Shown here in pieces: positions 9,448 to 55,615 of a DNA stretch of 64,000 bases. Positions within the stretch are counted from its first letter, which is position 1. Each line of letters opens with the position of its first letter. Origin of the DNA: Cerasicoccus arenae. GTDB lineage: Bacteria; Verrucomicrobiota; Verrucomicrobiia; Opitutales; Cerasicoccaceae. Location: the NCBI RefSeq assembly GCF_014651635.1, contig NZ_BMXG01000022.1, positions 1 to 64,000 of the forward strand, read 5' to 3'. The notes below the pieces were generated by a model, which saw nothing but the letters and a program-made list of their open reading frames with translations, did no database searches and was not told the DNA's origin. The translations under genes and the position numbers were made by a program.

Positions 9448-9537
<90 letters not shown>

Positions 9538-9625
9538 AATTCCTCTAAGTTATTGGCAGCCAGCGCCAAGCCTTTTAAACAAAGGGATTCAGGCTTGAGT
9601 GTTACACAAAACCTATGTGGAACAC

Positions 9626-10027
9626 ATGCCAAAGCGACCAGACGGCCTAGTAAATCGAAAAGGCAGCAAAATCTTTTATTGCCGTAAGCGGGTGCCGGAG
9701 AAATTGGTTCCAATTATCGGGCGGAAGAAGTTCATGGTTTCTCTGAAAACCGCCGATTACCAAGAAGCAAAGCGAAAGCTGCGTTCAGTTAAATTCGAGA
9801 TCGAGCAGAAGATCGACGCCGCAGAGCAAAAGTTGGAAAGGTCAAAGTCCGCACAGCCTACCGCGCTACTCGATGAGGAAGTCAAGGCCATGGCCATAGA
9901 TTGGTTCATTAAGCATGAACAAGACTTGGATCGTAAATACCGAAACCTACAGCCCAAAAATATCGGAGCAGCTGTTGATGGCCTAAGGGCGAATTTGGAA
10001 GGACAGCCATGCACTGGCAAGATGTAG
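9626..10027 (+). pseudogene. N-terminal remnant of a tyrosine recombinase
   Basis: About 133 residues starting MPKRPDGLVNRKGSKIFYCR. The opening NRKGSKIFYCRKRVPEKL with FMVSLKTADYQEAKRKL is typical of the arm-binding N-terminal region of phage-type integrases (the RKGSxYYFRRRVP style). The frame stops at 10025-10027 long before any catalytic domain, and no Arg-His-Arg-Tyr motifs follow, so only the N-terminal third survives. It starts about 90 bases after the 3' end of tRNA-Ser(GGA), the usual place for an integrase of an element inserted there. An earlier ATG at 9599 exists but the family pattern favours 9626. Confidence 0.75.
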
Positions 10028-10136: not shown

Positions 10137-10148
10137 TGCCTGACAGTC
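10137..10148 (-). promoter_or_regulatory. Inverted copy of the GACTGTCAGGCA site before lacI-type gene
   Basis: On the minus strand this reads GACTGTCAGGCA and continues AA, identical over 13 bases to sites at 11318 and 12260 ahead of two PEP-CTERM genes. It ends 15 bases before the ATG at 10164. Position fits an autoregulatory operator for the LacI-type protein; the assignment is inference from repetition and placement. Confidence 0.5.
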
Positions 10149-10163
10149 CGTTTTTTGTGAGCT

Positions 10164-11237
10164 ATGGTTCCTCTCATGGGACGACCGAGCACAGGTATTA
10201 CAGTCCGCGAACTGGCACGGTTGGCGGGGGTTTCGCGGCAGACAGTATCGGATGCCTTGCGGGGCACCGGGCGAGTGGCCGCCGCCACGCAAAAACGGAT
10301 CCGCGAACTGGCGGAAGAATTCAGATACGCGCCAGATCCGCTCATTTCGGCGGGATTGGCCCAGATACGCCGCAAGAGTCCGCAGCGAACCAAGGCGGTT
10401 CTAGGTTACGTGGAAACGGGCAGCACTCCAGACCTTACCGGGATCCACGAATCCTACCGCAGGCTCTATCAGGGAGCTCAGGAGCGGGCGGAGAATCTTG
10501 GCTATCTGCTCGAGCGGTTTTCGATTGCGGATCCAAACATCAAACCGAAAGGTCTGCAGAAGATACTTTTCGCACGGGGAATCCGAGGCTTGGTCATCCT
10601 CTATATTGACGACTGGAACAAAGATCCGGCTCCGCTTCCACTCGATCTCAACCAATTCGCGGCAGCCACCATCGGTGCTCGTCTGCGAACTCCGGCCCTC
10701 CACTTCGCGATGGCTGACGAGTTCGCCAACACGCAACTCTGCATTCAATATCTGACCGATCTCGGCTACCAACGGATCGGCCTCGCCCTTCCGAGTCCGC
10801 TGGACCGCTTGATTGAGAACCGGATCAGCCATGCCTACTACGGGTGGCAACAGTCGAAGTCGGCGGGAGTGCGTTTGCCTGTGTTCGACAACCGGGTGAC
10901 CCAGTTCGAAAGCACTGCCAACGCTTATCGTAGCTGGATCGACAGATGGAAGCCGGACGCCATTATGTCCTTCCCTCAGGGGCGATTGAACCGCCATCTC
11001 GGACTCCGCTTTCCCGAGCAGGCCGGCTTCGTCCACCTCGACCGCAACCCATCGAATTCCGGCATCGCCGGGATCGATCAAAAACACGAGGCCACCGGAG
11101 CCGCCGCAGTGGACATCGTTGCCAGACTCCTCGCCCTCGGCGAAATCGGACCTCCCTCCACCGCCCACGGCACCCTGATCGAAGGGCGATGGGTTGCCGG
11201 GGCCACTGTCGAAGAGCAGGGCCGAGCCTCGAAGTGA
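10164..11237 (+). CDS. LacI-family transcriptional regulator
   Basis: 357 residues. N-terminal helix-turn-helix: TVRELARLAGVSRQTVSDAL, then RGTGRVAAATQKRIRELAEEF with the hinge-side helix. A periplasmic-binding-protein-like sensor domain follows. The domain is shorter on conserved sugar-contact motifs than classical LacI, so the effector is unknown; carbohydrate is the usual case. ATG at 10164 has a weak GAG upstream, while ATG at 10176 (MGRPSTG) is an alternative. It is the first intact gene in the accessory region and is followed in the same direction by two PEP-CTERM genes that carry the same 13-base site found before this gene, so it is a good candidate for their regulator. Confidence 0.85.
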   Translation: MVPLMGRPSTGITVRELARLAGVSRQTVSDALRGTGRVAAATQKRIRELAEEFRYAPDPLISAGLAQIRRKSPQRTKAVLGYVETGSTPDLTGIHESYRRLYQGAQERAENLGYLLERFSIADPNIKPKGLQKILFARGIRGLVILYIDDWNKDPAPLPLDLNQFAAATIGARLRTPALHFAMADEFANTQLCIQYLTDLGYQRIGLALPSPLDRLIENRISHAYYGWQQSKSAGVRLPVFDNRVTQFESTANAYRSWIDRWKPDAIMSFPQGRLNRHLGLRFPEQAGFVHLDRNPSNSGIAGIDQKHEATGAAAVDIVARLLALGEIGPPSTAHGTLIEGRWVAGATVEEQGRASK

Positions 11238-11317
11238 AATGTACTGCAACCTGACCGGTCGCGTCGTCTTTTGTCCGGCGTGATTCCAGAGGTGACGGGA
11301 GCACACTATGGCTGGCT

Positions 11318-11410
11318 GACTGTCAGGCAATTGTTTGATATTAATATGCTTCCAAATTCGCGCTTTGTTACTAAACTACTAAATTCGTTTAGATCTGCTG
11401 CCAAAAAGAA
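11318..11410 (+). promoter_or_regulatory. Shared upstream leader, copy 1
   Basis: Begins with GACTGTCAGGCAATT, 113 bases before the ATG of the first PEP-CTERM gene. It then shares CGCTTTGTT-CTAA about 43 bases further on and CTGCCAAAAA-type sequence near the start with copy 2 at 12260. Matching order and spacing show that the whole promoter and untranslated leader was duplicated. Function as promoter and operator is inferred. Confidence 0.6.
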
Positions 11411-11430
11411 CTCTAAAGAGGATAATCCCT

Positions 11431-12174
11431 ATGAAAATCATTAGAACGCTCCCAGCCATTGCCGTTTTGCTTGCTACCGCCTCCACCAATGCGGTGGTTC
11501 TTGGCTACTCGAACAACTTCTCCACCAGCGTTGCGGACTTCACCGAAACCACCGATGTGCAGTGGACGCTTGGCAGCGGTGTGTACACCAATGCATTTAC
11601 AGCAGGCGGTGCCACTGCCTCGAGCGCCACGGTTAACGTAACCGACTTGGGACCAGTCGGCACCGACTGGTCCATTTCCACAACTTTTTCGATCTCGACG
11701 TTGGAGTCGGGTATGACGTTCGGGTTCGGTGCGCTCGGGACTAACACGGCCTTCAGCGGGGGCGCTGGAAATCCGTATTACCTCGCGGATGTCAACACTG
11801 CAGGATCGGTGCGAATTCTTGAGATTGCCTCCTCACCCGCGGACCTCGGCGGCACCAAGACGAGCCTCCCTGATGGCGGGCTGCAGACCGACACCAATTA
11901 CACGATGACTCTCTCGGGAACCTACTCGGGAGGCACACTTACAATGGATCTCAGCATTACCGACGGCGTGAATATCGGATCTGTCATCGGCGCAACGGAC
12001 GCCTCGTCCCTGACAGGCCAGAATTTCGGTTTTCGTAATCGGATTCCAAACGCCGGAACTTACAGTGTCAGCTACGACAATTTCAGCATCGTCCCCGAAC
12101 CGGGGAGTGCAGCACTGATTATGTCTGCCTGTGTCGGAATGCTGCTGATGATGCGCCGTCGTCGCCGCGCATGA
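11431..12174 (+). CDS. PEP-CTERM sorting-domain protein (first of a pair)
   Basis: 247 residues. Signal peptide at 1-22 (MKIIRTLPAIAVLLATASTNA), then a beta-rich domain with a LamG-like or choice-of-anchor style pattern, and a C-terminal sorting signal: VPEPGSAALIMS, a hydrophobic segment, then MRRRRRRA. Such proteins are recognised by exosortase and displayed on or released from the surface, often in exopolysaccharide contexts; no exosortase gene is in this window. The body is unrelated to the neighbouring PEP-CTERM protein although leader, tail coding and 3' flank match. Substrate or partner is unknown. Confidence 0.88.
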   Translation: MKIIRTLPAIAVLLATASTNAVVLGYSNNFSTSVADFTETTDVQWTLGSGVYTNAFTAGGATASSATVNVTDLGPVGTDWSISTTFSISTLESGMTFGFGALGTNTAFSGGAGNPYYLADVNTAGSVRILEIASSPADLGGTKTSLPDGGLQTDTNYTMTLSGTYSGGTLTMDLSITDGVNIGSVIGATDASSLTGQNFGFRNRIPNAGTYSVSYDNFSIVPEPGSAALIMSACVGMLLMMRRRRRA

Positions 12175-12201
12175 CTGGTTCAGACACGATTTTTGGGTTG
12201 C

Positions 12202-12239
12202 GCCGGCGGCAGGCGACTCGTTCTTCTGCCGGCTTTTTT
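12202..12239 (+). terminator. Rho-independent terminator after first PEP-CTERM gene
   Basis: GCCGGC at 12202-12207 pairs with GCCGGC at 12228-12233, followed directly by TTTTTT. The 34 bases at 12174-12207 are identical to 13218-13251 after the second PEP-CTERM gene. Confidence 0.75.
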
Positions 12240-12259
12240 ATGGTTTAGCGTGCATGACG

Positions 12260-12350
12260 GACTGTCAGGCAATTCTCCATGGCAATAAGATTTCAAATTT
12301 TCGCTTTGTTGCTAACATTTCGAATCAGTTAAAAAATCTGCCGCCAAAAA
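12260..12350 (+). promoter_or_regulatory. Shared upstream leader, copy 2
   Basis: Starts with the same GACTGTCAGGCAATT as the leader at 11318 and keeps the CGCTTTGTT-CTAA block 42 bases later and the CTGCCGCCAAAAA block near its end. It begins 116 bases before the ATG of the second PEP-CTERM gene. Likely promoter plus operator; inferred from repetition. Confidence 0.6.
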
Positions 12351-12375
12351 ACAATCACTAAAATCAACACCCCTT

Positions 12376-13218
12376 ATGAATATCACACACAAATCCCTCG
12401 TCATTGCCGCAGTCTCTTGCGCACTCACTCAGTCTAGTTCTGCAGAACTGCTGTCTTATTGGAATTTCAACAATATCGATCCCGTCTATAATAGCGGCAC
12501 GCTCGGTTCCTTCGACATTGACGCTGCTGCCTACGGCGAGGCCTACTCACAAGTTGACAACGCGACTCCCGGCACTCTCGCCAGTAATACCAGCAACAGC
12601 ACAGTATTTAACGGTGCTGGCATCAACATAGACTTCGCCAATATAGCAACGATTGCCAATGCCACTATCAACGGCAAAGCGGCGACGTCCTATACCAGTC
12701 AAAATATTACTGGCGGCAACGCTGGTTATGGTGTGTTTACAGACTCCACGTTAAATCGCGTTGGCACTGACTCCACAACCGGCGGCTCCCTCATTTTCTT
12801 GAATCCTTCGGCTAATATGAACGGCAAATACATCACCCTTTCGCTAAGCAGCGTGGGGTATGACACGCTCTCCTTGACTTATGCCACACGCCGTACCTCT
12901 GGCATGAATGCCAGAGATGTCTGGACATATAGCACTGATGGCATCGTCTTCAGTGACCTCTCTACCCCTGGCTACACCAACGGTACTAGCAGTTTCGCGA
13001 CCACGACATTGAATATCTCAACGCTCAGCTCCAACGTCCTCGACAATCAATCTACCTTCTACCTCCGTTTGAATTTTGATTCTTCAAGTACCACCGGGAG
13101 CTACGCCTATGACAATATCCAGTTGACTGGCAGTACCATCCCCGAGCCGACGACTGCAGCACTGTTTATGGCTTGCAGTGCCGGGGGGGTGCTGCTGCGC
13201 CGTCGCCGCCGCGCATAA
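12376..13218 (+). CDS. PEP-CTERM sorting-domain protein (second of a pair)
   Basis: 280 residues with signal peptide MNITHKSLVIAAVSCALTQ, Asn/Thr/Ser-rich beta-type body beginning ELLSYWNFNN, and C-terminal sorting signal IPEPTTAALFMA, hydrophobic segment and LLRRRRRRA. Predicted to be an exosortase substrate on the cell surface. The SYWNFNN opening is common in verrucomicrobial and planctomycetal PEP-CTERM proteins. The last codons and the 34 bases after them match the first PEP-CTERM gene, but the body does not, which suggests a conserved expression and sorting frame around different passengers. Confidence 0.88.
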   Translation: MNITHKSLVIAAVSCALTQSSSAELLSYWNFNNIDPVYNSGTLGSFDIDAAAYGEAYSQVDNATPGTLASNTSNSTVFNGAGINIDFANIATIANATINGKAATSYTSQNITGGNAGYGVFTDSTLNRVGTDSTTGGSLIFLNPSANMNGKYITLSLSSVGYDTLSLTYATRRTSGMNARDVWTYSTDGIVFSDLSTPGYTNGTSSFATTTLNISTLSSNVLDNQSTFYLRLNFDSSSTTGSYAYDNIQLTGSTIPEPTTAALFMACSAGGVLLRRRRRA

Positions 13219-13244
13219 CTGGTTCAGACACGATTTTTGGGTTG

Positions 13245-13282
13245 CGCCGGCAGACGACCTCGTTCGTTTGCCGGCGTTTTTT
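13245..13282 (+). terminator. Rho-independent terminator after second PEP-CTERM gene
   Basis: Stem CGCCGGCA at 13245-13252 with TGCCGGCG at 13269-13276, then a run of six T. Same flank as the first terminator but with a longer stem. Confidence 0.8.
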
Positions 13283-13350
13283 AATGGTTCGTTCAGTCTG
13301 CGTTAAGCTCGTTGAATACGGCGAGACTCAGGGGGGACTTGTGCTGACGT

Positions 13351-13922
13351 ATGGAGTCGAAACCAGTAGCGACAGTCAGGTTCTCTGATTTCACGGAAAC
13401 GCCCAACGGATGCTCCGCATTAGGCGGGGCTGCAAGCGCGGGGATTTATCCTACAGGTGCGCCGTCAGTGGATGGTATTTTTCACACTGTGGGTTCAGAC
13501 TCCAGAGGAGTAGGATTACGGATCGACGGACTCACGGCAGGTAATTACGAAATTTATTTAACGGGTAAAAATACGAACGCATCGCCCGCATTGGAGATGC
13601 GATTATACGCTGCAGCTGGAGCGTCGGATACCTCGTTTTCATTTGGGACATCCTCACTCGTTCAAGTTGAAAATTCTCTAGTGAACCGATGGTTTGAGAG
13701 CTAAGCGGTCGTTTCAAAGTCGAGCTGGCTGCCGCACAATCGCCTTATCTAGTCGCGGATGGGGGGAGTTCGGGACTTGAGGGGCGTGATTTTATGAACA
13801 CCGCAGAAATTATCCGTATGGACGAGGGGCATGCTAAGCGCCCCAACATTCTATTTATATTTTCAAATGATATGGGCTACGAGACCGTGGGTGGTCTAGC
13901 TTACGCAATTAAGTCCGCTTGA
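13351..13922 (+). pseudogene. Degraded beta-sandwich protein joined to a sulfatase N-terminus
   Basis: Frame one, from the ATG at 13351, encodes a surface beta-sandwich-like segment (RGVGLRIDGLTAGNYEIYL) and stops at 13704. The same similarity resumes in a second frame from about 13710 as RFKVELAAAQSPYLVADGG and GRDFMNTAEIIRM, so a frameshift lies near 13690-13710. That second frame then runs straight into GHAKRPNILFIFSNDMGYE, the unmistakable N-terminus of a type I sulfatase (normally RPNILFIFSDDMGY; here the second position of the Asp pair reads Asn-Asp). It stops at 13922, at the edge of IS3-like sequence. The sulfatase core is gone, so this is a fused, inactive remnant. Confidence 0.7.
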
Positions 13923-13957: not shown

Positions 13958-14388
13958 ATGAAAGGCAAACGATACACCACAGAGCAAAAAATCCGTGTTC
14001 TTCGTCAGGCTGAACAGGCCGACGCCACCATTTAGGATGTCTGTCGCGAGGCAGGCATCAGCGAACAGAGTTTCCATCGTTGGGAACGCGAGTTCGGGAT
14101 GATGGAGCTGGATCAGGCAAGCAACTGAAGGGGTTGCAAAAGGAAAACGCTCGGCTCAAGCGCATGCTTGCCGATGAGATGCTCGGCAAAGAGCTTCTAA
14201 AGGAGGCACTTGAAAAAAGTTATGAGCCCGGGCATAAACGCGAAGTTGCCGAGGGTCTGGTTGAGCAGGGTCGCTGCTCGGCCCGGCTACTGCCTCTCTG
14301 CGCCCAAGCCTTGACTTCCTCAACAAACCTATATCAACACATCAATCAACCTGCTAGACTAACGAATAAGGTGGAACAGTTTGCGTAG
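13958..14388 (+). pseudogene. Degraded IS3-family transposase (orfA/orfB)
   Basis: Starts MKGKRYTTEQKIRVLRQAEQ, an IS3-type OrfA with a helix-turn-helix (VCREAGISEQSFHRWEREFG). A TAG interrupts it at 14032-14034 and a frameshift near 14120 is needed to continue as LKGLQKENARLKRMLADEML, the leucine-zipper end of OrfA. The start of OrfB follows (KREVAEGLVEQGRCSARL) and similarity ends near 14300; no DDE integrase core is present. It lies directly after the sulfatase remnant, which it may have broken. The strand runs towards the GH16 gene on the opposite strand. Confidence 0.8.
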
Positions 14389-14421: not shown

Positions 14422-16863
14422 CTACAGGCGTGACTTTAGCTGCCAAGCGCGTGTGTAATCGACCTCCATCGATACAGGAAGATTTGCATCGTCTGTATCA
14501 TTGGTCGCCCAGCCGCCGATTTGAACATTGAACCTTAATGTAGCTGGCGCATTACTGACGCGCTCGCTGATTTGCTCGGCGACTTTTTTGCCGTCGACAT
14601 ACCAAGTGAGTTTGCCCGGTTCCCAGAGGAGGCCGTAGACGTGATAGCCGTCTTCAGTTGGGCCGTAATAAATCTGAGATGTGCCCCATTGTTTGTGCTC
14701 GGGTCCATAACCATCCCAGTGAGTGGCGACACTATTGCGGCCGGGGCCCCATTCGGAAAGGATTTCCATGATGTCAATTTCCATCGCACCGTTACCAGTG
14801 TGACGACGTTGCCACTCGTCCAGACCGCTTTCTTCACCACGGTCGGGCATCATCCAGTAGGCGGGCCAGAGACCACGCACGTAGGGCACTTTAATCCGGG
14901 CTTCGAAGTAACCGTATAGTTGCGCCCACTTATCATAGGTCTGGATGAGGCCTGAAGTATATTCGCGAGTGTCCAGTTTCGGATCATTGTTTTCGTGACC
15001 GAAACGTTTTTCAACGATAAATGTCGCGACGCCGTCGCCGATGATGACGTTTTCAGGGGCATAGCGTTGTTTTTGTCCCGGCTGAGGACCGTCCCAGGGG
15101 AAGCGTGGTGACCACAGTGATTCGTCGAGTGTATCGCCGTCGAAATTCTCGTCTAGAGTCAAGACCCAGTCACCCTCGACTGGGGGGCGTCCCCCGAGCC
15201 ATTCAGGCAGGACCGCTGGTATATTGCGATCTTCCGGCTTCGTGAAGGATAGCTCATTCGCAGCGTCGGCTGGACTACCACTCGCACGAAGGTCGGATAG
15301 GATCAGAGTGGTATCAGCCTTCGGGCGAGCGACGAATACTTGAATCGCTTTGATACGAGCCGATTTCAACGGATAGGCGGGTGCTCCGTTTTGTTGTCCA
15401 AAAGTCAGATTAAGTGTTTTGCTTTCGCCTGCGTCGATTAACAGGTTCTCCGTGTTCCACGGCTCATCTTTCCATGCTCCAGGATTATCGACACGCATGG
15501 AAACCTTAAGCTTAGAGTTTCCGGGGTTGGTGACTGTGACCTGAATGCCACCGAAAGCACTTAGGTTCCAACCGCCCGAAGGGATAGGGAATTGAATGTT
15601 CGGATAGCCCTTAGCTTTGTTAAATGTGGCTTTAATTTTGCCATCTACCAGAACTGCAGAGGATTCGCTGAAATTGAATCCCGACAGTCCGTTTTTTTTC
15701 AAATCGAGTAGATTGCCATCGATAGAAGGAGAGAAGGTAGCGTCGACACCGATTGCTGTAGGTTTGGTTGCTGCAGACGTCGTTGCTGAGTCTCCGCTGC
15801 CGAAGGGAACCAGATTACGGACGAGAATGGATGCATCAGCCTTGGGGTTGGAAACATAGAGCTTGATGTAGTTTACCTTCGAGCGATCCAGTGCGTATCC
15901 AGAATGGCCATGCGATTGGCCGAAGATCACCTTGACTGGCATAGTTTGGCCAGCGTCGATCCAACTATTACCGGTGTTCCAAGGTTCCTTTCTCCAGTCG
16001 CCTGGGTTGGCCACGCGCAGAGCGACGTTTAGTCGAGAATTTCCCGTATTGGTGATCTCAGCTTGGACACCTGCAAACTTAGAGAGATCGATTTGACCTC
16101 CGGGGAGTGGGAAGTCGATGCCCGGGTAGTTGTCATCATTCGGAAAGACTAGCTTGAGCGCAGAGCCTTCGACTGACAGCATTGGGTTACCCTCTGTTTT
16201 AATAGCGCTAATGTTATCGGCCGTTGGGACGAAAATTGGTGAGCCACTTTTTGCTGTGATGGATGCTGCGGGTGCTGTTGTCGCTGCTGCGGGGGTGCTG
16301 GTCGGAGTGCCTTTGCCAAATCCCTCAATGGATTTAATTAGAATGCTTCCACTTTCGTTCGGTTTACTGACGAAAAGCTTCACCGCACTGATAGCACCAC
16401 TATTGAGCGGGTATCCCGCCTGTCCAAAGGATTGGCCGAAAGTCACCTGCAAGCGTTTGGAGTCGCCCGGAGCGATCCAGACATTGTTGCTATTCCAAGG
16501 CTCTTTTTCCCAGTCTCCGTTGTTTTCGGCCCGCATACTGATGTTGAGACGCGAGGTGCTGGTATTGACGATTTCAGCTTCGATTCCTGCGTAGGTGGAT
16601 AGGTTCCACCCGCCGGTAGGCACAGGGATATTAAATCCTGGGTATGATTTACTCGCCGGGAATTCGACGCGTAAGGTTTTTGAGTTCTCCGTATCGACGA
16701 TGGATAAGGTCGGGTTGTGTTCGGTCTTGAAGCTCGTGATGTTCGTCGATGCGGGCGTCAAAAGCTCTGCCGTTTCGGGCGTCGTTTGAGCTGCGAGGGG
16801 GAGTGTTAAAGCAAAAAATAGAGCCAGTAGGCTCTGATTTAGAGGTTGTTTTATGGATATCAT
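14422..16863 (-). CDS. Secreted GH16 endo-glycanase with three tandem accessory modules
   Basis: 813 residues. Signal peptide (about 1-25, ending LPLAAQ). Three homologous modules of about 150 residues follow (near 30-185, 205-360 and 375-530), each with a YPGFNIPVP-like strand, GGWNLS or IDLSKFAG, and a DWEKEPWN or DWRKEPWN block; they look like carbohydrate-binding beta-sandwiches. The C-terminal GH16 domain (about 548-813) has WPAYWMMPDRG and the catalytic EIDIME at 695-700 (nucleophile and acid/base Glu). GH16 enzymes cut beta-1,3/1,4-glucans, agars or related algal galactans; the neighbouring GH1 and GH94 remnant favour a beta-glucan such as laminarin, but agar-type activity is not excluded. 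Co-directional with and 12 bases after the GH1 gene. Confidence 0.9.
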   Translation of the reverse strand: MISIKQPLNQSLLALFFALTLPLAAQTTPETAELLTPASTNITSFKTEHNPTLSIVDTENSKTLRVEFPASKSYPGFNIPVPTGGWNLSTYAGIEAEIVNTSTSRLNISMRAENNGDWEKEPWNSNNVWIAPGDSKRLQVTFGQSFGQAGYPLNSGAISAVKLFVSKPNESGSILIKSIEGFGKGTPTSTPAAATTAPAASITAKSGSPIFVPTADNISAIKTEGNPMLSVEGSALKLVFPNDDNYPGIDFPLPGGQIDLSKFAGVQAEITNTGNSRLNVALRVANPGDWRKEPWNTGNSWIDAGQTMPVKVIFGQSHGHSGYALDRSKVNYIKLYVSNPKADASILVRNLVPFGSGDSATTSAATKPTAIGVDATFSPSIDGNLLDLKKNGLSGFNFSESSAVLVDGKIKATFNKAKGYPNIQFPIPSGGWNLSAFGGIQVTVTNPGNSKLKVSMRVDNPGAWKDEPWNTENLLIDAGESKTLNLTFGQQNGAPAYPLKSARIKAIQVFVARPKADTTLILSDLRASGSPADAANELSFTKPEDRNIPAVLPEWLGGRPPVEGDWVLTLDENFDGDTLDESLWSPRFPWDGPQPGQKQRYAPENVIIGDGVATFIVEKRFGHENNDPKLDTREYTSGLIQTYDKWAQLYGYFEARIKVPYVRGLWPAYWMMPDRGEESGLDEWQRRHTGNGAMEIDIMEILSEWGPGRNSVATHWDGYGPEHKQWGTSQIYYGPTEDGYHVYGLLWEPGKLTWYVDGKKVAEQISERVSNAPATLRFNVQIGGWATNDTDDANLPVSMEVDYTRAWQLKSRL

Positions 16864-16875
16864 GTTGAAGTAAAT

Positions 16876-18279
16876 TTAGGTGTATGCGAGGGGAGGCGTT
16901 GTGGAAACAACCGGTGTATCGTGTAGAGTGGCACCGTTAGATTGGATGACATCTCGATACCAGTAAGCAGAGTCCTTGAGTGTACGAACCTGAGTTTCGT
17001 AGTCGATATGAATGAGTCCAAATCGATGTTTGTAACCTTCGGCCCATTCGAAATTATCCATGATCGACCATTGGAAATAGCCGCGCACATCGACGCCGTC
17101 TTTAATGGCGCGTTCTAAGCCGAGTAGGTAGCGTTGCAGGAAGTCGATGCGATGTGTGTCATGCACGCGACCATCCAAGGAGACCCAATCGGGCATCGTC
17201 AGACCGTTTTCCGTGATGACGACGGGCAATTTATAGCGATCAGAAAGGTATTTTGTGCCCCAGTAAAGCGCATCGTCGGATCGCTCCCAGAGGAAGTGTG
17301 TGTGCGGTCCGCCAACATCTTTTTCAACGAGGATGGGTTTACCGTCGGGACCCGCTTTGGTTGCTTTGCCGTGGTAGATATTGCATCCATAAAAATCAAG
17401 CGGTTGCTGTATAATATCGAAATCGGAATCTTTGAAGTGTGGCAGATTTTTTCCGTAAGCCTGAAGACCTTGCTCTGGATAGTGTCCTAGAATAGGCGCG
17501 TCACCCCACCAGCGATTATTCCAGCAATTATCCGCCCAAACTCCGTCCATCACCGCGTAGGCGGCTGCGATGTCTTCAGGCTTGTCGCTTGTAGGATAGT
17601 TTACGCAACCAACCGGTGCCCAACCAATTTGTGGTGCTGTTTTGGCACGTGCACGAATGGTTTGCACGGCAATCCCATGGGCAATTAAAGAGTTGTGCCC
17701 AGCTTTCAAAACCTCACGCAAGCCGAGCTGTAGCCCGGGGGCATGCTTGCCGTCTGAGTGGCCTAAACCGATAAAGCATTGCGGTTCGTTGAGAGTGATC
17801 CAGTGGCTCACTCGATCAGAGAGTCGATCCACGATGACTGCAGTGTAGTCCGCAAACCATTGTGGGCTATCAGGGTTGAGCCAGCCACCACGGTTGAATA
17901 ATTCAGTGGGGTAGTCCCAGTGAAACAGCGTGACCCAAGGCTGGATGTCCGCGGCTAAGAGTTCGTCGATCAGGTTATCATAGAAGGCCAAACCTGCTTC
18001 GTTGATTTTGCCCGTTCCGTCGGGCATGACGCGTGGCCAAGAAATGGAGAGTCGGTAGGCTTGGAGACCGACCTGAGTCATTAATCGAACGTCATCTTTA
18101 TAGCGATTGTAGTGATCGCAGGCAGTGTCGCCAGTATGACCATCCCAAACTTTGCTTTTTTGGTGGGAGAGCATGTCCCAGACGGACTCGCCTTTGCCAT
18201 CAGCTTTCCAGGCTCCTTCGATTTGATAGGAAGCCGCAGCGGCACCCCAGGTGAAATTTGTTGGGAATGAAGAACTCAT
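16876..18279 (-). CDS. GH1 beta-glucosidase
   Basis: 467 residues, no signal peptide, so cytoplasmic. All GH1 hallmarks are present: FTWGAAAASYQIEG, HWDYP, acid/base Glu165 in TLNEPQ, GCNIY near 299, nucleophile Glu357 in VITENGL, and DNFEWAEGYKHRFGL for aglycone and glucose contacts. It would hydrolyse short beta-glucosides imported after GH16 cleavage. First gene of a two-gene operon with GH16. It is a close homologue, about half identical by eye, of the GH1 domain of the divergently transcribed GH1-AraC protein, so the regulator domain probably arose by duplication of this enzyme. Confidence 0.93.
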   Translation of the reverse strand: MSSSFPTNFTWGAAAASYQIEGAWKADGKGESVWDMLSHQKSKVWDGHTGDTACDHYNRYKDDVRLMTQVGLQAYRLSISWPRVMPDGTGKINEAGLAFYDNLIDELLAADIQPWVTLFHWDYPTELFNRGGWLNPDSPQWFADYTAVIVDRLSDRVSHWITLNEPQCFIGLGHSDGKHAPGLQLGLREVLKAGHNSLIAHGIAVQTIRARAKTAPQIGWAPVGCVNYPTSDKPEDIAAAYAVMDGVWADNCWNNRWWGDAPILGHYPEQGLQAYGKNLPHFKDSDFDIIQQPLDFYGCNIYHGKATKAGPDGKPILVEKDVGGPHTHFLWERSDDALYWGTKYLSDRYKLPVVITENGLTMPDWVSLDGRVHDTHRIDFLQRYLLGLERAIKDGVDVRGYFQWSIMDNFEWAEGYKHRFGLIHIDYETQVRTLKDSAYWYRDVIQSNGATLHDTPVVSTTPPLAYT

Positions 18280-18512
18280 TTGAATGTGGGTAATGGTAGA
18301 GATTTAATCCGCGTCGTGATTGTCTCCGCGGTGATTAGAATAGCATTTTTTTAGATATGCTGTTAGGGGTCTACTGATTAACGATGTGTCCTTTGCTGAT
18401 TAGTCTTTCTTTAACACGAATTTTTAGGTTCATGATCGAGCAGTATTTGACAAGAGATGGGAATTTCTTGTTATTTCATGCTTGTTGTTCCATTCTGGTT
18501 ATTACCCCTATT
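18280..18512. promoter_or_regulatory. Divergent promoter region with repeated CTGATTA boxes
   Basis: 233 bases between the GH1 operon (leftwards) and the GH1-AraC gene (rightwards). TGATTA occurs at 18332, 18375 and 18397 on the same strand; the last two are CTGATTA boxes exactly 22 bases apart, the usual two-turn spacing of direct half-sites bound by AraC-type proteins. A candidate binding site for the GH1-AraC protein; inferred only from pattern. Confidence 0.4.
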
Positions 18513-20279
18513 ATGAAAAAAGACCCAACGCTGTTTCCTGAAGATTTTATCTGGGGGGCATCGACTTCCGCGTATCAAATTGAGGGCGCGCATGATGCCC
18601 AGGGTAAAGGAGCCTCGATTTGGGATTTATTTGTTCAGAGGGAGAACCGTATCTGGCGGGGCCAAAATGGTCGAGTTGCTTGTGATCACTATTATCGATT
18701 TAAGGAAGATGTTGCGCAGATGCGACTTATGGGACTGAAGGCGTATCGTTTCTCACTTTCTTGGGCGCGAATATTGCCGGACGGAACCGGAACGATTAAT
18801 GAAGCTGGGCTAGCCTATTACGATGCATTAATTAATGAATTGCTTGAGAATAATATAGAGCCGTGGGTGACGTTATTTCATTGGGATTTGCCTTACGAGC
18901 TGTTTCTAAGGGGGGGGTGGTTGAATCGTAGTAGTCCAGAATGGTTTTCTGAATATACGAAGGTCGTTGTAAGTCGATTTTCAGATAGAGTGGAACGCTG
19001 GGTGACGATTAATGAACCGCAGTGCTTTATCGGTTTAGGTTACCGGGATGGGACGCATGCACCTGGGTTGAATCTAAGTTTTGGGGAATGTTTGATGGCT
19101 GGGCACAATGCGCTGTTGGCGCACGGACGATCAGTGCAAGTCATCCGTGAAAATGCGAAACGAACCCCGATGATTGGTTGGTCGCCGTCAGGTTCGGTCT
19201 ATCGTCCAGGAAGCAATCGGCTGGATGACATTAGCGCCGCGCGCGAAGCGACCAGTGCGATTTACTCCGACAATGTTTGGAATACTCGCTGGTGGTCGGA
19301 TCCTGCCATTCTCGGGCATTATCCTGAGGATGGGTTGAAGGTCTATGAGAAAGCATTGCCGAAGTTTCCAGCAACGGATTTTGAGATCATTCAACAACCG
19401 CTCGATTACTACTGCTGTAATATTTTTCAGGCCACGCCGGTACGTATGAGTGATGAGGGCACACCTGTGGCGATACCCCTGTCTGATGGAGAAGATATTT
19501 CACTTTACGAATGGTCGCAGAACCCCGACTGCCTCTACTGGGGGCCACGTTTCATTCATGAACTCTATGACTTGCCAATAGTGATCACTGAAAACGGTTG
19601 TTCGACCTCAGATCGCGTCAGTTTGGATGGCGCTGTTCATGATAGTAACCGCACTGATTTTATGGTTGGGCATTTGCTTTCACTGCGTAAGGCAATGGAT
19701 GATGGAGTGGATGTACGCGGTTACTTTCATTGGTCTTTACTGGACAACTTTGAGTGGCATGAGGGCTACAAGCACCGTTATGGTTTGATACATGTAAATT
19801 ATGAGAATCAAGTTCGGACTTGGAAAGACTCGGCGTATTGCCTTCAGGAGATCATTAGTTCGAATGGCAATAGTTTGAAGGAGTTTTTGCATTCTGATTC
19901 AGAGCCTGTCCCATATGTGGTTAAAGAAGCGAAGCGTTATATTGATTTGAATCTGTCCGAAACCTTTAATGTCAAAACGATTGCGGTTCATTTAAACTGC
20001 CACCCTGATTTTCTGAGCCGCCGTTTCAAGCAATATGTGGGGACGAGTCTGAGTGACTATATCCGGCGTTTACGCTTAGAGTTTGCGCGAAACTTGTTGA
20101 GAAATGCTGATGTTCAGATCGGTGAGGCCGCAGATCGTGCTGGTTTTTCGGATCGTATCCATTTCAGTAAAGTATTTCGCAAAGAGATGGGGATGACCCC
20201 GAGCCAATATCAGCAACAGTTTCGCGTGGTAGAGGGGCAGCCTGTTGTCGAAGTTTCGAAGAATCCGAGGCTGACTTAA
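18513..20279 (+). CDS. GH1 beta-glycosidase fused to AraC-type DNA-binding domain
   Basis: 588 residues. Residues 8-455 form a full GH1 barrel: FIWGASTSAYQIEG, HWDLP, Glu168 in TINEPQ, Glu360 in VITENGC, DNFEWHEGYKHRYGL. Residues 470-572 form an AraC/XylS double helix-turn-helix: FNVKTIAVHLNCHPDFLSRR, then IGEAADRAGFSDRIHFSKVF and the family signature FRKEMGMTPSQYQQQF. No signal peptide. The ATG at 18513 (MKKDPTLFPEDF) matches the GH1 start; an upstream extension to 18384 is open but has no GH1 similarity. GCN of the related enzyme reads CCN here. An 8-G run at 18910-18917 lies in the GH1 part. Likely a regulator of the divergent GH1-GH16 operon sensing a beta-glucoside through the GH1 fold, possibly still catalytic. 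I know of no described example of this fusion. Confidence 0.88.
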   Translation: MKKDPTLFPEDFIWGASTSAYQIEGAHDAQGKGASIWDLFVQRENRIWRGQNGRVACDHYYRFKEDVAQMRLMGLKAYRFSLSWARILPDGTGTINEAGLAYYDALINELLENNIEPWVTLFHWDLPYELFLRGGWLNRSSPEWFSEYTKVVVSRFSDRVERWVTINEPQCFIGLGYRDGTHAPGLNLSFGECLMAGHNALLAHGRSVQVIRENAKRTPMIGWSPSGSVYRPGSNRLDDISAAREATSAIYSDNVWNTRWWSDPAILGHYPEDGLKVYEKALPKFPATDFEIIQQPLDYYCCNIFQATPVRMSDEGTPVAIPLSDGEDISLYEWSQNPDCLYWGPRFIHELYDLPIVITENGCSTSDRVSLDGAVHDSNRTDFMVGHLLSLRKAMDDGVDVRGYFHWSLLDNFEWHEGYKHRYGLIHVNYENQVRTWKDSAYCLQEIISSNGNSLKEFLHSDSEPVPYVVKEAKRYIDLNLSETFNVKTIAVHLNCHPDFLSRRFKQYVGTSLSDYIRRLRLEFARNLLRNADVQIGEAADRAGFSDRIHFSKVFRKEMGMTPSQYQQQFRVVEGQPVVEVSKNPRLT

Positions 20280-50349: not shown

Positions 50350-51411
50350 ATGGCATCCGAGCAGTTAAAAGATAGAAAAAAGAAGGGCGAAATTCTTTCT
50401 GCTGCAGATTTGGCCCGTCATTTGAATATTTCCCAGTGGTCGATTTCCAGAGCAATCAACGGCCATAAGGATGTCAGTGAGGACACTCGGGAACGTGTTC
50501 GGAAGGCGATGGAGGAATATGGCTTTCAGCCTAATCTCTACGCGCGTGGCTTGCGTGGAAGAGAGACGGGCATGATCGGCGTCTGTTTTCCACGACATGG
50601 TGTTCCAATTATTGGGCAGAAGATTTCCGAATTACAGATGTTTCTGAAAGAGAAAAACTATCGCTGCCTTTTCGAATCAACCATGAACCGTGCGGATGTT
50701 GAAGCCAACGCGGTTAAGGATTTTCTGAATCTCAAAGTCGAGGGAATCGTGACGATTCAATCGCAACTGATGCCTGCGGATTTGTCCCCATTACTGGAAA
50801 AGAAAGATACGCCCTGCGTCATGATAGACCCAGTGCAAGAAGGACACATCTGCCCGAGCGTTTCATTGGATCGACATAAGGCGATGGCTTTATTGATGGG
50901 GCATTTATGGGAGTTGGGGCATCGGCGTTTTGCTTTGATGGGATTTGGCCCCCGCGATGGCTGGCGGTGGCCGCCCTTGGTGGATTTTGCTGCCAAGCAT
51001 GGTCTGAGTGCCGATGAGGTCTTTGTCAGCCTTCCTAAGAAAAAGGCTGATGATAGCTTTGTGGTCGCTGGCGTAGAATTGACTGAGCAATTGTTGCAAA
51101 TGAAGCCCGCAGAGCGCCCGATGGCATTGATTTGTTTAGACGATTTGGTGGCGCTGGGAGTTGTCCAAAGTTTGCATCGAGCTGGATATTCGGTGCCGAA
51201 TGATTTTTCTGTGACAGGTTTCAATAATCAGGACATTGCCCAGTGCCTTTTCCCGCGACTGACGACAATAGACCAGCACCCTGAATTACTGATGGAGCAG
51301 GTAAGCAGTTTGTTGATCAGTCAGATTAAGAACTGTGGCGGTGAGGATGCTGATACTGTCCTCGTCGAGCCGCAATTAGTGGTGGGGGAATCTACTGGTC
51401 CGGTGCATTAG
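50350..51411 (+). CDS. LacI-family transcriptional regulator
   Basis: 353 residues. Helix-turn-helix SAADLARHLNISQWSISRAI with NGHKDVSEDTRERVRKAMEE and GFQPNLYARGLRGRETGMIG, then a periplasmic-binding-protein-like sensor domain (SVSLDRHKAMALLMGHLWEL, LICLDDLVALGVVQSLHRAG, NDFSVTGFNNQDIAQCLFPR, LTTIDQHPELLMEQVSSLLI). Full length. Effector unknown, probably a sugar released by the downstream enzymes. Three dyad sites with the same core lie before this gene, before the PEP-CTERM gene and inside the beta-helix gene, marking its likely regulon. Same direction as all genes to 57691. Confidence 0.93.
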   Translation: MASEQLKDRKKKGEILSAADLARHLNISQWSISRAINGHKDVSEDTRERVRKAMEEYGFQPNLYARGLRGRETGMIGVCFPRHGVPIIGQKISELQMFLKEKNYRCLFESTMNRADVEANAVKDFLNLKVEGIVTIQSQLMPADLSPLLEKKDTPCVMIDPVQEGHICPSVSLDRHKAMALLMGHLWELGHRRFALMGFGPRDGWRWPPLVDFAAKHGLSADEVFVSLPKKKADDSFVVAGVELTEQLLQMKPAERPMALICLDDLVALGVVQSLHRAGYSVPNDFSVTGFNNQDIAQCLFPRLTTIDQHPELLMEQVSSLLISQIKNCGGEDADTVLVEPQLVVGESTGPVH

Positions 51412-51493
51412 CCAAGGCATTAGCTGCTTGAATGCCCGTTTTTTTTATATTTATCTTGCTTTTCGGTATTAACAACCTAGTAATTGCCTCATG

Positions 51494-51509
51494 CCCAATA
51501 CGTATTAGG
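51494..51509. promoter_or_regulatory. Candidate LacI operator before the PEP-CTERM gene
   Basis: CCCAATACGTATTAGG, a 16-base dyad with 7 of 8 pairs matching and central C-G as in classical LacI operators. It lies 48 bases before the ATG at 51558. Shares the CCAATACG core with the two other sites. Confidence 0.65.
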
Positions 51510-51557
51510 TAACTCTTGATTTCAATGCTTATCCAAAAACCCAAGGACTAGAAAATT

Positions 51558-52235
51558 ATGAAAAACATGCTCAAACTACCCATTGTCTGTTCCATTATCT
51601 TTGTTGCTCAGGCAGCAATTGCAGAAACCGTTGTCGACGTTTCTCCTACAGCGCCGGATACAAATATCGAAGCAAGCTTCACCAGCGGTACCGCTAGTGG
51701 CTACCAATGGCGGGACAATGAGAACAGTCGTCGCGACTTGGGCCAATCATTTTTGGCTGATAGTTCTTTCACTTTAGATGCATTTTCTTTTTCTGCGCTT
51801 GGTAATGTGCAGGCAGGAGCTTCTGGCGCTAGTTTCGATGTAAAGATTTTCGAGAGTGATAATATCTCTTTAATCGGTAGTGCGATTTCAACCCAAAGCG
51901 GCACCTACCTCACTTCAGGTAGTAATCCTGTTAGTGGAAATTGGATTGTTTTTGATTTAGAGGATGTTGCTTTAACGGCGGGAAATTATTACACGATCGT
52001 GTTGTCATGGGATAGTGCTGGTGTCCAGGACCAGGATCAGGTTTTTGGAATGGTTTCTGGCAACTTGTATGGGGATGGCTCGGCTTGGGAGTCGTCAGAT
52101 GGCGTCAACTTTTCGAGTTTAGGTGGAGACCTACAGTTTACAGTACAGTCGATCCCTGAGCCCAGCACTGTGGCGCTTTTCCTTGGAGTCGTTGCTATTT
52201 CTGTTGTAGCTCGTCAACGCCGGAACCGTAAGTAG
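51558..52235 (+). CDS. PEP-CTERM sorting-domain protein with a domain shared by its neighbour
   Basis: 225 residues. Signal peptide (MKNMLKLPIVCSIIFVAQAA) and C-terminal sorting signal: IPEPSTVALFLGVVAISVV then RQRRNRK. The body (about 30-190) is a beta-type domain opening ASGYQWRDNENSRRDLGQSF with AGNYYTIVLSW; the same domain is found in the middle of the large beta-helix protein encoded next. Surface-displayed protein, probably an exosortase substrate, in a sugar-responsive cluster. May present or bind the cluster's substrate; that is inference. Confidence 0.85.
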   Translation: MKNMLKLPIVCSIIFVAQAAIAETVVDVSPTAPDTNIEASFTSGTASGYQWRDNENSRRDLGQSFLADSSFTLDAFSFSALGNVQAGASGASFDVKIFESDNISLIGSAISTQSGTYLTSGSNPVSGNWIVFDLEDVALTAGNYYTIVLSWDSAGVQDQDQVFGMVSGNLYGDGSAWESSDGVNFSSLGGDLQFTVQSIPEPSTVALFLGVVAISVVARQRRNRK

Positions 52236-52243
52236 GTTCCGGC
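52219..52243 (+). terminator. Hairpin at the end of the PEP-CTERM gene, weak terminator or attenuator
   Basis: GCCGGAACC at 52219-52227 pairs perfectly with GGTTCCGGC at 52235-52243, spanning the stop codon, and is followed only by TTTA. With the beta-helix gene starting 28 bases later it may reduce rather than end transcription. Confidence 0.6.
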
Positions 52244-52270
52244 TTTAGCCCCAATATTTATCCCAATTGT

Positions 52271-55200
52271 ATGTCTGTTTATCGATGCTTTGTGCAGGTG
52301 GCTTGTGCCGCCTTATTAACCCAATACGTGTTAGGTAGTCAAGTGGAGACTAATTCGTTGTCGACGTTGCAAATGCTACAGCCTGGCCAACCTGCAGAAG
52401 TTAATTTGGCTGCTGGCGACTATGTCTTACCTAAAGAAGGGTTGCTTTTGAAGAACCTTGAGGGCGTTACAATTAATGCAGAAGGAGTGCGGCTCCTTGC
52501 GTCGAACCCTGTGGGTAGCGCCTTAATTATTCGGAATTGTAAGAACCTGACGATTCGAGGGCTTACGGTGGATTACAATCCGTTGCCATTCACTCAGGGC
52601 ACCATTACGGCGGTGGACCGGGAGGCGCTAACTGCCGATATTGCCATCCATGATGGGTATCCTGATCTGACTGAAGATTACTTGGTCCGTCGGGCGCATC
52701 TCTTTGAAAAAGACCGTCATCTCTGGAAGGCGGGTGCTCCAGATTATTATCTGAGTAAAAACGAGCGTTTGGATGCGAGGCATTGCCGCTTACATTTCCA
52801 AAAGGGCGAAACGGCCTTTCATTATGTTGAAGTAGGTGATCGGATAGTGATGAATATCCGAAAGGCTGCGGCCATACAGGTGCGAGATAATTCCGAAGGG
52901 CTGCATCTAGAGGATTGCACGATTCATGCGGGTCCGGGCTTGGGCTTGCTTGTGCGTTTTGCTAAAGATGGAGGCACTTATGAGCGTTTGCGCGTGCTTC
53001 CAGGGCCATTGCCTGAAGGTGCCACTGAGCCGCGCCTTCTTTCGACTTGTGCGGATGCAGTCAACATTGCGTATACGCGTAAGGGTCCTATTATCAGTGA
53101 ATGCGAATTTGCTTACATGGGGGATGACTCGGTGAACCTGCATGGTGCGACGCTTCCGGTTTTAGCATGGGAAGACGAGAAGACGTGCCTATCGATGCGA
53201 CCGTTCGGGGATGATCCCTTTGAGGACTTATTACAGGAGGGAGATGTAGTCCGATTTCTTCAAGAGCCAGATTTTTCACTGATTAGGACTTCAGAAATAG
53301 AGAGTATTGAGCGTGCCAACGAGCCCTTCGAAAAATGGGAATCAAAGATGCGCGAAATATGGCCAAGCTATCGGAAATCGAAGAACGCTACATTTTACCG
53401 AATACGATTCAAGGACGCGATTTCTGATGTCCCTGCTGGAATTTCTTTTTGTGAGTTCCATGCTAGTTCGGCTTCAGGCTTCGTGATTAAAGATTCCTAT
53501 TTCCACGACCACCGTGCACGCGGACTTCGTTTGATGAGCAATGACGGTTTGATCGAGAACAACCGATTCGAACGTCTCAAGGGGGCTGCCATTAGTGCCG
53601 GCCCAGAATTTGCTTATTGGAAAGAGGCGGGTTGGGTCCACGATTTGACTATCCGAGGCAATACTATTACGGATGTGGGGCTCGGCGCGCATCAGCTTTA
53701 TGAAGAGAGCTACACGCTCGGTGCCATCTCCTTATTTACTCATGTATTGCCGATGGGGATGGCTTCACGTTACTATCAAGGAAATGACAATATTTTGATT
53801 GAGGACAACGTTATTGATGGATGTTCGATGGACGGTATCAGTATTGTGGCGAGTAAAAATGTCGTCATACGCAATAACGAGATATCCAATGTGAATCTAA
53901 TCGATGCGGGAGATGCGGGTCGCGATTATGGTTTGAAAGCTGGACAGGCCATTTCAATTATCCAGTCGGAAGCGTTGATTGAAAATAACACGATCCATGT
54001 GGCTCCTCCAAAATTTGAATCTAAGGCTATCGTGCCTGATGTGGATACGGCTAGTAATGTGAGCCAAGAGATGTTAACTCTCTCGACAAGCGTGATGGTT
54101 GGGAACCCCAAAGTTGACGGGAGTCATCTAGTGAACGCTGAATTAGAAGGGGCCAATGGCTTTCGCTTCTATTGGATCGAAAATGAAGGACGTCGTGCCC
54201 TTGGGCAACAATTCAAGGTCAGCAAAAAGACTAAAATCTCTCAGCTCGCTTTAAAAATAAATTCTGCGACTCGTAATCTGGATACGAACAGCTTGTTCTC
54301 GTTGACTTTTGCGCGGACGAAGAACGGGAGCGCCCAGCCTGGTGAGATTTTGGCTAGTTACGTTGGTTTAATTCCAGATGAGGACGAAAAGCTAGATAGT
54401 CGAACATGGCTATATCTCACGTTTGCAGAGTTGGAATTGAAGCCTGGAGATTATTGCTTTTATGTGAATTTTAATGCCGCTGGTCAGGCTGGCCGCTCGC
54501 TTGTGCTGAGTGTTGGGGCCAAGAATGACACGTATGAGGGCGGTAGGGGGATTTTTGCTAATGATGGTCCTTTGGGGACTTGGGAGTATTCTCGTCCGCT
54601 TCACTTTGTTTTGTCAGATTCCGCGAACTTACAGCCTGCGGTGCCCGAACAGGCTGCAGTATCTCGACGGATTTTGAATGTGGATTCAAATGGCGGTGGA
54701 GATTACACGAGTTTGGCCGATGCATGCAGGGACGTTCAACCTGGGGATGTTATTCGTATTGAACCGGGCAGTGGCCCATATCGTGAGCCACTCTTTATTA
54801 AGAGGTCTGGCCGAAAGGATGCACCGATCGTTGTTGAGGGAAGCGGAGAGACTGTTACTGGTTTTGATCCTCTTGAGGGTTTCAGAAAAGAGGGCGATCA
54901 TTATGTGTGCGATATTGCGCAGGAGTTTCCGTTTGTTCTCGTTTTCAAAGGTGAGCGTCTGCTACAGGATGCGCTGACTGGGCAATTTACCAAGTATGCG
55001 CGCTTGTCTGAGGATAATAAAAGCCTAGAGCTTTTACCCGGAGTTTCTCCAGATGGCTGGGAGATTTCCACACGTTATTTTGTGGTGCGAATTGAAAATG
55101 CGTCTCATCAAGTTTTTCGCAATCTGAAAGCGACTGGCGCGCTCAACGATGGTTTCAATTTGCATGGGAAGGGGCAGGGGCTCGTCTTTGAAAACATAGA

Positions 55201-55615
55201 AGCTTTTCAGAATTTGGACGAAGGTTTTTCAGCGCACGATCAAATGCAATGTGAAATTAGCGATGGAGTCTTTTATGGAAACGACAATGGGGTCGGCAAC
55301 GTTGCTGACAGCGAGATGTCAGCAACGCGATTGAAGATATACGACAATTTGGGCTATGGGCTTTGGCTGAGTAACTGCCGTGCGGTGCTTAGCGATATTC
55401 AGGCATGGGATAACGGAATTTCCCAGATTCGCTTCTCCGGCAACGTCAATGTCGAAGTCGATGGAGTTGTTGCCTACGACGTGCCATGGAAAGCTCGACA
55501 ATGGGTCAGTTACAAAGAGTCAGCCAAAGCATCATCCCTGGCAGCAGTTGCGATGGATAGAAAAGTTCAATTAGTTGGCGAACAACCAGTGCTTCGCTCA
55601 AGGGAAAGCCTTTAG
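52271..55615 (+). CDS. Large secreted protein with two parallel beta-helix domains (GH110-like)
   Basis: 1114 residues with a signal peptide (about 1-22). First beta-helix (about 30-585): GVTINAEGVRLLASN, NLTIRGLTVDYN, ADAVNIAYTRKGP, YMGDDSVNLHG and HDHRARGLRLMSNDGLIENN with GAAISAGPEFAYWKEAGWVH. These are like GH110 alpha-1,3-galactosidases, though assignment within beta-helix enzymes is tentative. Residues about 597-785 are a beta domain shared with the preceding PEP-CTERM protein. The second beta-helix (about 795-1090) begins ILNVDSNGGGDYTSLADACR and has GFNLHGKGQGLVFENIEA. Likely an extracellular glycosidase or lyase. A candidate LacI operator lies inside the 5' coding end (52320-52335). 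Confidence 0.75.
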   Translation: MSVYRCFVQVACAALLTQYVLGSQVETNSLSTLQMLQPGQPAEVNLAAGDYVLPKEGLLLKNLEGVTINAEGVRLLASNPVGSALIIRNCKNLTIRGLTVDYNPLPFTQGTITAVDREALTADIAIHDGYPDLTEDYLVRRAHLFEKDRHLWKAGAPDYYLSKNERLDARHCRLHFQKGETAFHYVEVGDRIVMNIRKAAAIQVRDNSEGLHLEDCTIHAGPGLGLLVRFAKDGGTYERLRVLPGPLPEGATEPRLLSTCADAVNIAYTRKGPIISECEFAYMGDDSVNLHGATLPVLAWEDEKTCLSMRPFGDDPFEDLLQEGDVVRFLQEPDFSLIRTSEIESIERANEPFEKWESKMREIWPSYRKSKNATFYRIRFKDAISDVPAGISFCEFHASSASGFVIKDSYFHDHRARGLRLMSNDGLIENNRFERLKGAAISAGPEFAYWKEAGWVHDLTIRGNTITDVGLGAHQLYEESYTLGAISLFTHVLPMGMASRYYQGNDNILIEDNVIDGCSMDGISIVASKNVVIRNNEISNVNLIDAGDAGRDYGLKAGQAISIIQSEALIENNTIHVAPPKFESKAIVPDVDTASNVSQEMLTLSTSVMVGNPKVDGSHLVNAELEGANGFRFYWIENEGRRALGQQFKVSKKTKISQLALKINSATRNLDTNSLFSLTFARTKNGSAQPGEILASYVGLIPDEDEKLDSRTWLYLTFAELELKPGDYCFYVNFNAAGQAGRSLVLSVGAKNDTYEGGRGIFANDGPLGTWEYSRPLHFVLSDSANLQPAVPEQAAVSRRILNVDSNGGGDYTSLADACRDVQPGDVIRIEPGSGPYREPLFIKRSGRKDAPIVVEGSGETVTGFDPLEGFRKEGDHYVCDIAQEFPFVLVFKGERLLQDALTGQFTKYARLSEDNKSLELLPGVSPDGWEISTRYFVVRIENASHQVFRNLKATGALNDGFNLHGKGQGLVFENIEAFQNLDEGFSAHDQMQCEISDGVFYGNDNGVGNVADSEMSATRLKIYDNLGYGLWLSNCRAVLSDIQAWDNGISQIRFSGNVNVEVDGVVAYDVPWKARQWVSYKESAKASSLAAVAMDRKVQLVGEQPVLRSRESL
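52320..52335. promoter_or_regulatory. Candidate LacI operator inside the beta-helix gene
   Basis: CCCAATACGTGTTAGG, differing at one base from the site at 51494, and flanked by GTA on both copies (18-base match with one change). It sits 50 bases after the ATG at 52271. An intragenic site could block elongation or loop with the upstream operators, 826 bases apart. Inferred. Confidence 0.5.

Follow-up and report, generated by a model that had tools for sequence, protein, structure and literature searches.

A PEP-CTERM surface-protein locus of Cerasicoccus arenae with different bodies in a shared, probably LacI-controlled frame

Streptococcal M proteins and other LPXTG proteins combine a conserved signal peptide and sorting tail with a highly variable body, and they have a dedicated regulator. 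Autoregulated LacI-family sugar regulators, in turn, adjoin genes of carbohydrate use. The PEP-CTERM proteins are highly diverse, show little homology to known proteins and are among the most rapidly evolving sets of their genomes, by a route that was left open beyond duplication and loss, and their tail, of about 24 residues, has been regarded as a module (Haft et al. 2006, PMC1569441). Proteobacterial PEP-CTERM genes, and those of Proteobacteria only, have an upstream DNA element that goes with sigma-54, by a promoter with -24 GG and -12 GC, and with PrsK/PrsR (PMC1569441).

Here we describe a PEP-CTERM locus in the window, that is, the whole stretch of 64,000 nucleotides that was analysed (positions 1 to 64,000 of contig NZ_BMXG01000022.1), from Cerasicoccus arenae, the host, whose genome (4.13 Mb, in 63 contigs) contains PEP-CTERM-like sequences at 75 places, of which about 61 exceed the family cut-off. 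Two PEP-CTERM genes stand in tandem in the window and encode proteins of 247 aa (gene 1) and 280 aa (gene 2). By "frame" we mean the operator and promoter, the leader, the signal-peptide start, the PEP-CTERM sorting tail, and the terminator, and by "body" the passenger between them. The reading that we consider probable is that of a LacI-controlled, horizontally spread surface-protein locus, in which the frame is fixed, and it is in the stretch from the signal-peptide start to the PEP motif that one passenger is exchanged for another.

The locus resembles the described PEP-CTERM/exosortase proteins (TIGR02595, PMC1569441) in its C-terminal sorting tail, its putative signal peptide, the many diverse members per genome and their fast turnover, but its conserved unit adds a putative LacI operator, a leader, a signal-peptide start and a terminator around different bodies. 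As with the sigma-54/PrsR element, an upstream DNA element is common to its PEP-CTERM genes and points to common control; here, however, the element is a 13-mer of one local LacI and concerns two genes only. M and LPXTG proteins differ in belonging to another sorting system and in varying as members of one family, whereas whole unrelated bodies are found here. The likeness to autoregulated LacI sugar regulators lies in a LacI gene beside its putative target, and beside a sulfatase gene in Opitutia bacterium UBA4506; the difference is that the nearest target would be a surface protein with a sorting tail, each tandem frame having its own copy of the operator. What was already known is thus the tail as a module and the rapid turnover (PMC1569441), and what appears to be new is the regulator-bound frame with probably replaced bodies: no earlier report of it, and no papers on PEP-CTERM with gene conversion or with the LacI family, were found in the literature searched, the coverage of which was incomplete.

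The frame and the bodies of the two window genes

The leaders of the two genes align over about 130–140 bases, from GACTGTCAGGCAATT to the first codons, at 69% to about 70% identity and with a local score of 55, where 200 shuffles reach 22 at most, and GACTGTCAGGCAATT is exact at 11318 and 12260, just as the preliminary description, made from the letters of the window, had reported together with further shared blocks. The PEP-CTERM tails, in which it had seen common coding, are indeed homologous (78% identity); the 3' flanks are 86–89% identical, and tail and flank together 80% over about 165 bases. The identical run that it had placed in the flanks measures exactly 34 bases (12174–12207 versus 13218–13251), from the last base of the stop codon to inside the 5' arm of the hairpin; since the run stops there, the terminator hairpins are merely similar, not identical, and the terminator is not included in the run as had been supposed. 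The hairpin at 13244–13277 has a z of -4.6. Both proteins begin with a basic start followed by a hydrophobic stretch (simple hydropathy score) and exceed the cut-off of 16 for TIGR02595 of NCBIfam, with 21.0 bits for gene 1 and 22.5 bits for gene 2; the Pfam PF07589 cut-off is reached by neither. The coordinates of all parts are collected in Table 1.

Table 1. Parts of the LacI locus in the window, in order of position
Feature	Position	Strand	Remarks
Putative LacI operator GGACTGTCAGGCA in the promoter of the LacI gene itself	10137..10149	-	exact 13-mer, inverted; overlaps -35-like CTGACA
LacI-family regulator, 357 aa	10164..11237	+	Pfam LacI E 1.3e-11; 82-83% identical to the UBA4506 and NP23 proteins
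Frame copy 1, 5' part: putative operator (11317-11329), leader, first ten codons	11317..11460	+	homology with copy 2 and NP23, and in operator and 5' leader with UBA4506 too
Passenger body 1	11461..12090	+	PEP-CTERM gene 11431-12174; no similarity to bodies 2-4
Frame copy 1, 3' part: PEP-CTERM tail (12091-12174), 3' flank, hairpin (12202-12233)	12091..12233	+	homologous to copy 2, NP23 and UBA4506
Frame copy 2, 5' part: putative operator (12259-12271), leader, first ten codons	12259..12405	+	13-mer exact; homology with copy 1 and NP23
Passenger body 2	12406..13137	+	PEP-CTERM gene 12376-13218; no recognisable relation to body 1; only weak relatives
Frame copy 2, 3' part: PEP-CTERM tail (13138-13218), 3' flank, hairpin (13244-13277)	13138..13277	+	34 bases identical to copy 1
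Decayed sulfatase remnant	13320..13891	+	77% DNA identity to L126 9163-9737 (inside the UBA4506 sulfatase gene); homology changes frame

Between these common ends the two genes have nothing recognisable in common. Body 1 against body 2 scores 19 at the DNA level, which is chance level (a score matched or surpassed by 196 of 200 shuffles), BLASTP gives no match, and HHalign, once the tails are removed, finds no relation (E 0.63); that the two proteins are unrelated between their ends, as had been described, is upheld, and on these sequence comparisons it is well supported that the bodies are non-orthologous. A similarity that HHalign reports when the tails are left in (E 3e-9) is false and vanishes upon trimming. 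Elsewhere in the order, eleven relatives of body 1 occur at 26–43% identity, across families and in other settings and frames. For body 2 there is a weak match to NF038120. The AlphaFold model of body 1 has a pLDDT of 45 without an alignment and a moderate mean of 64 with ten relatives, and in the latter form it resembles CBM66, legume lectins, and other ConA-like folds, so that body 1 may be described as a predicted ConA-like lectin/CBM fold, consistent with sugar binding. A donor gene was found for none of the bodies.

The frame is confined to this pair within the host. When 73 of the 75 PEP-CTERM-like places entered a comparison of leaders and flanks, those of the window pair matched each other and no other PEP-CTERM gene, and searches with the leader, the 3' flank and the 13-mer found no third frame in the host genome. 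Because the matches are limited to these two genes, the leader as a genome-wide PEP-CTERM promoter element was ruled out.

The LacI regulator and the same locus in two further genomes

Three features of the locus go beyond the preliminary description, namely the LacI gene upstream, a third copy of the 13-mer in the LacI promoter, and the sulfatase remnant downstream. The LacI-type helix-turn-helix of the regulator scores 44.5 bits for PF00356 against a cut-off of 27, and its ligand domain 20.2 bits for PF13377, below the cut-off of 26.5. At E below 1e-60 the protein occurs, among 373 genomes of the order, in the host and two others only, which belong to three different families, and it is absent from the three genomes of the same genus. 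A contig scan of GTDB release 220, which used two peptide patterns and can miss relatives, gave as the two close relatives Puniceicoccaceae bacterium NP23 and Opitutia bacterium UBA4506, which correspond to these two other genomes. The regulator was not found in viral contigs, and its plasmid matches are distant only. The helix-turn-helix core is identical in all three LacI proteins.

The 13-mer TGACTGTCAGGCA, a partial palindrome with 4/6 pairs, is present at all LacI promoters and PEP-CTERM leaders of the three genomes: it stands inverted upstream of LacI in the window, UBA4506 and NP23, and recurs in the latter two in the leader of the PEP-CTERM gene just downstream of LacI. This makes seven sites in all, with one mismatch, the first base of the site at 11317. 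Each site includes a -35-like hexamer (CTGTCA or CTGACA), 16–18 bases from a weak -10. Among nine genomes the exact 13-mer is limited to the LacI loci, with no copy in the six besides these three. Operator placement is therefore well supported, and we infer that LacI is an autoregulated repressor acting at these putative 13-mer operators.

A second LacI locus lies in the window at 50350–55615 and consists of a LacI gene (50350–51411), directly after it a PEP-CTERM gene (51558–52235), and then a gene for a beta-helix protein of 1114 aa. The PEP-CTERM gene is preceded by a near-perfect palindrome, CCAATACGTATTAGG, and the LacI gene by CCAATACGAATTGGG. The architecture of this locus is like that of the first and its putative operator is different; in view of this second case, LacI plus a surface protein is a recurring pairing here.

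Across three genomes, each from another family, four different bodies go with a common LacI, putative operator, leader, tail and terminator, and all six body pairs score like shuffles. The PEP-CTERM gene of NP23 has the shared leader, tail and hairpin, but a third body; the comparison of NP23 with the window pairs the start MNTIRTLPVIT with MKIIRTLPAIA and the tail IPEPASAALILSGCAGMLLMRRRRRA with VPEPGSAALIMSACVGMLLMMRRRRRA. UBA4506 has a fourth body in the shared frame, where a run of N hides part of the leader. Across the loci the tails are 74–81% and the 3' flanks 69–89% identical. A search for the frame elsewhere, which the preliminary description had called for, accordingly gave nothing more in the host and other passengers in UBA4506 and NP23.

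The next gene after the frame in UBA4506 is a sulfatase gene (Pfam E 1e-39), whereas no sulfatase follows the PEP-CTERM gene of NP23. Between the window and UBA4506, LacI (80–83% DNA identity) on one side and the sulfatase gene (77%), decayed in the window, on the other are homologous, whereas the bodies enclosed by them are not. The GC content of LacI is 59–60% in all three genomes, that of bodies 2–4 is 50–55%, that of the hosts 51–53%, and that of body 1 57%, which fits capture of local bodies but is supportive only.

The surroundings of the locus in the window contain further features. At 9448–10027, just upstream of the LacI block, a tRNA-Ser gene is followed by a 142-aa DUF6538 integrase-like fragment, which together look like the remnant of a tRNA-associated island. 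Just past the sulfatase remnant, at 13958–14388, we read a transposase-like fragment with an in-frame stop from the sequence. Farther downstream, the ORF at 18384–20279 carries both a glycosyl hydrolase family 1 domain and an AraC-type DNA-binding domain (Pfam), and has as neighbours a GH1 gene (16876–18279) and a GH16 gene (14422–16863).

The proposed replacement of bodies weighed against duplication, loss and a recombinase

Shared frames were surveyed in a partial sample of 192 PEP-CTERM genes, 73 from the host and 119 from relatives, among which 20 pairs have both leader and 3' flank in common. The bodies are homologous in 16 of these (35–94% aa); of the four remaining pairs, three lie in the LacI frame and one is a second independent case. 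The survey bears directly upon simple tandem duplication, according to which diversifying selection on the exposed bodies drove them apart until no likeness could be recognised, and constraint kept the ends similar. The tandem arrangement speaks for it, as does the set of orthologues around the host gene C4:49393 (L013, with L246, L191 and L164; four genomes of the genus), in which leaders are 74–83% identical in DNA, leader and tail DNA together 74–90%, and bodies 35–52% in amino acids, and which shows that bodies can outpace frames. This set had been a candidate for another swap and was rejected as such, being a case of fast divergence of orthologues; PEP-CTERM bodies do also diverge quickly in place, and this is the main caveat to our reading. 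Bodies 2, 3 and 4, moreover, reach HHalign probabilities of up to 60% between them and may be remote relatives of each other, possibly with a shared fold.

Even so, we consider simple tandem duplication quite improbable, and as the main explanation it was rejected on the body comparison. Bodies 1 and 2 have no profile relation although body 1 is still recognisable in its relatives across families, two of which lie in UBA4506 and two in NP23, outside their LacI frames. The relatives of body 4 in NP23 (45% and 42%) likewise sit outside the LacI frame, and all 16 other pairs with a common leader and flank retain recognisable bodies. Bodies 1 and 4 belong to families that are still recognisable elsewhere under other leaders and tails, and since such bodies stay recognisable over this distance, replacement explains the difference within the frame better than decay. 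The preliminary description had held that duplication would suffice if the frame occurred only here and the bodies were distant homologues; the frame is present in two further genomes, and bodies 1 and 4 have families of their own. For comparison, the host pair C1:65882 and C1:66688 (L082), with near-identical tail and 3' flank and homologous bodies (about 57% aa), is an ordinary tandem duplicate and a useful control. At two other places, C22:72988 (L066) and C23:121 (L040), contig ends each break in a PEP-CTERM gene; the 65 residues that can be seen of the two are 91% identical, and the assembly may have broken here in a repeated gene.

The ages of the copies raise a second alternative, namely that an older tandem array held several bodies under one LacI and that each lineage retained a different member. 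The leaders of the window pair are 69% identical, against 70% for either with NP23, so that the copies seem as old as the split of the loci, and differential loss explains these equal distances nearly as well as replacement does; two copies, furthermore, are still present in the window. An earlier replacement of bodies inside the frame would still be required, however; the two 3' flanks in the window agree better with one another (89%) than with those of the other genomes (74–83%), and neither UBA4506 nor NP23 showed remnants of extra copies. We therefore rate differential loss as rather unlikely, if less so than duplication.

The second independent case of a shared frame without a shared body is found in the genus, between the host gene C3:24590 and C1:154932 of the genome G002: their leaders are 83% identical over 238 bases, signal peptide, tail and 3' flank are shared as well, and the body is not. 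The surroundings are also shared, with a divergent tyrosine recombinase gene upstream and a DUF6082-like gene downstream. This module of recombinase, PEP-CTERM gene and DUF6082-like gene occurs twice in the host genome and once in G002 (loci L248 8035–10398, L249 on contig C27 of the host, G000, and L250 7979–10228), and in the G002 module the PEP-CTERM body is unrelated, with everything around it conserved. Read from the ORFs, the neighbourhood of the C3 copy includes relaxase-like and type I restriction genes.

The recombinase gene beside this second frame, together with the DUF6538 fragment and tRNA-Ser gene just upstream of the LacI locus, lends some colour to a cassette into which a site-specific recombinase inserts or exchanges bodies. 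The integrase fragment, however, lies outside the conserved block, which begins at about 10128, and in UBA4506 and NP23 the LacI frame was not seen to adjoin any recombinase gene. The second-frame recombinase was not found in viral contigs; its plasmid-borne relatives are numerous but distant, and no special tie of it to PEP-CTERM genes emerged. A recombinase-driven cassette has no support at the LacI locus, and we regard it as very improbable indeed.

A proposed model of body replacement and its possible meaning

For the probable reading, a fixed frame with replaced bodies, we propose the following model, in which the recombination route, the ligand, repression, surface location, horizontal spread, and function are what we infer from a small sample of three genomes, one of them with a run of N in the leader. 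LacI (10164–11237) would probably repress itself and each PEP-CTERM gene through GGACTGTCAGGCA, since in either orientation this site overlaps a -35-like box. With the ligand present, probably a sugar from a sulfated polysaccharide, the passenger would be made, exported by its signal peptide, and then sorted by its PEP-CTERM tail. The segment from the first codons to the PEP motif would be replaced by recombination with other PEP-CTERM genes, both between lineages and between tandem copies, and the locus itself may have spread horizontally between families. As a result of a swap inside the frame, a new surface domain would gain control, sorting and termination in one step. The preliminary description had taken the pair for a cassette with swapped passengers: the same frame with further bodies and the same regulator in two genomes agrees with this, but the frame is not genome-wide, and active swapping would be an interpretation of the pattern.

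A frame with a replaced body offers a concrete route by which a single recombination event may yield a new surface protein with regulation and sorting in place from the outset. The link of particular surface proteins with a LacI regulator and a sulfatase further suggests that the locus is used on sulfated polysaccharides. A wider idea, to which we give somewhat less than even weight, is that, in this group of Verrucomicrobiota, the PEP-CTERM frames serve as general docking sites, the bodies being routinely recombined between signal peptide and PEP motif. If this is true, a strain could alter its surface repertoire while keeping the regulator of each frame, and the fast turnover and few homologues of PEP-CTERM proteins would in part be explained.
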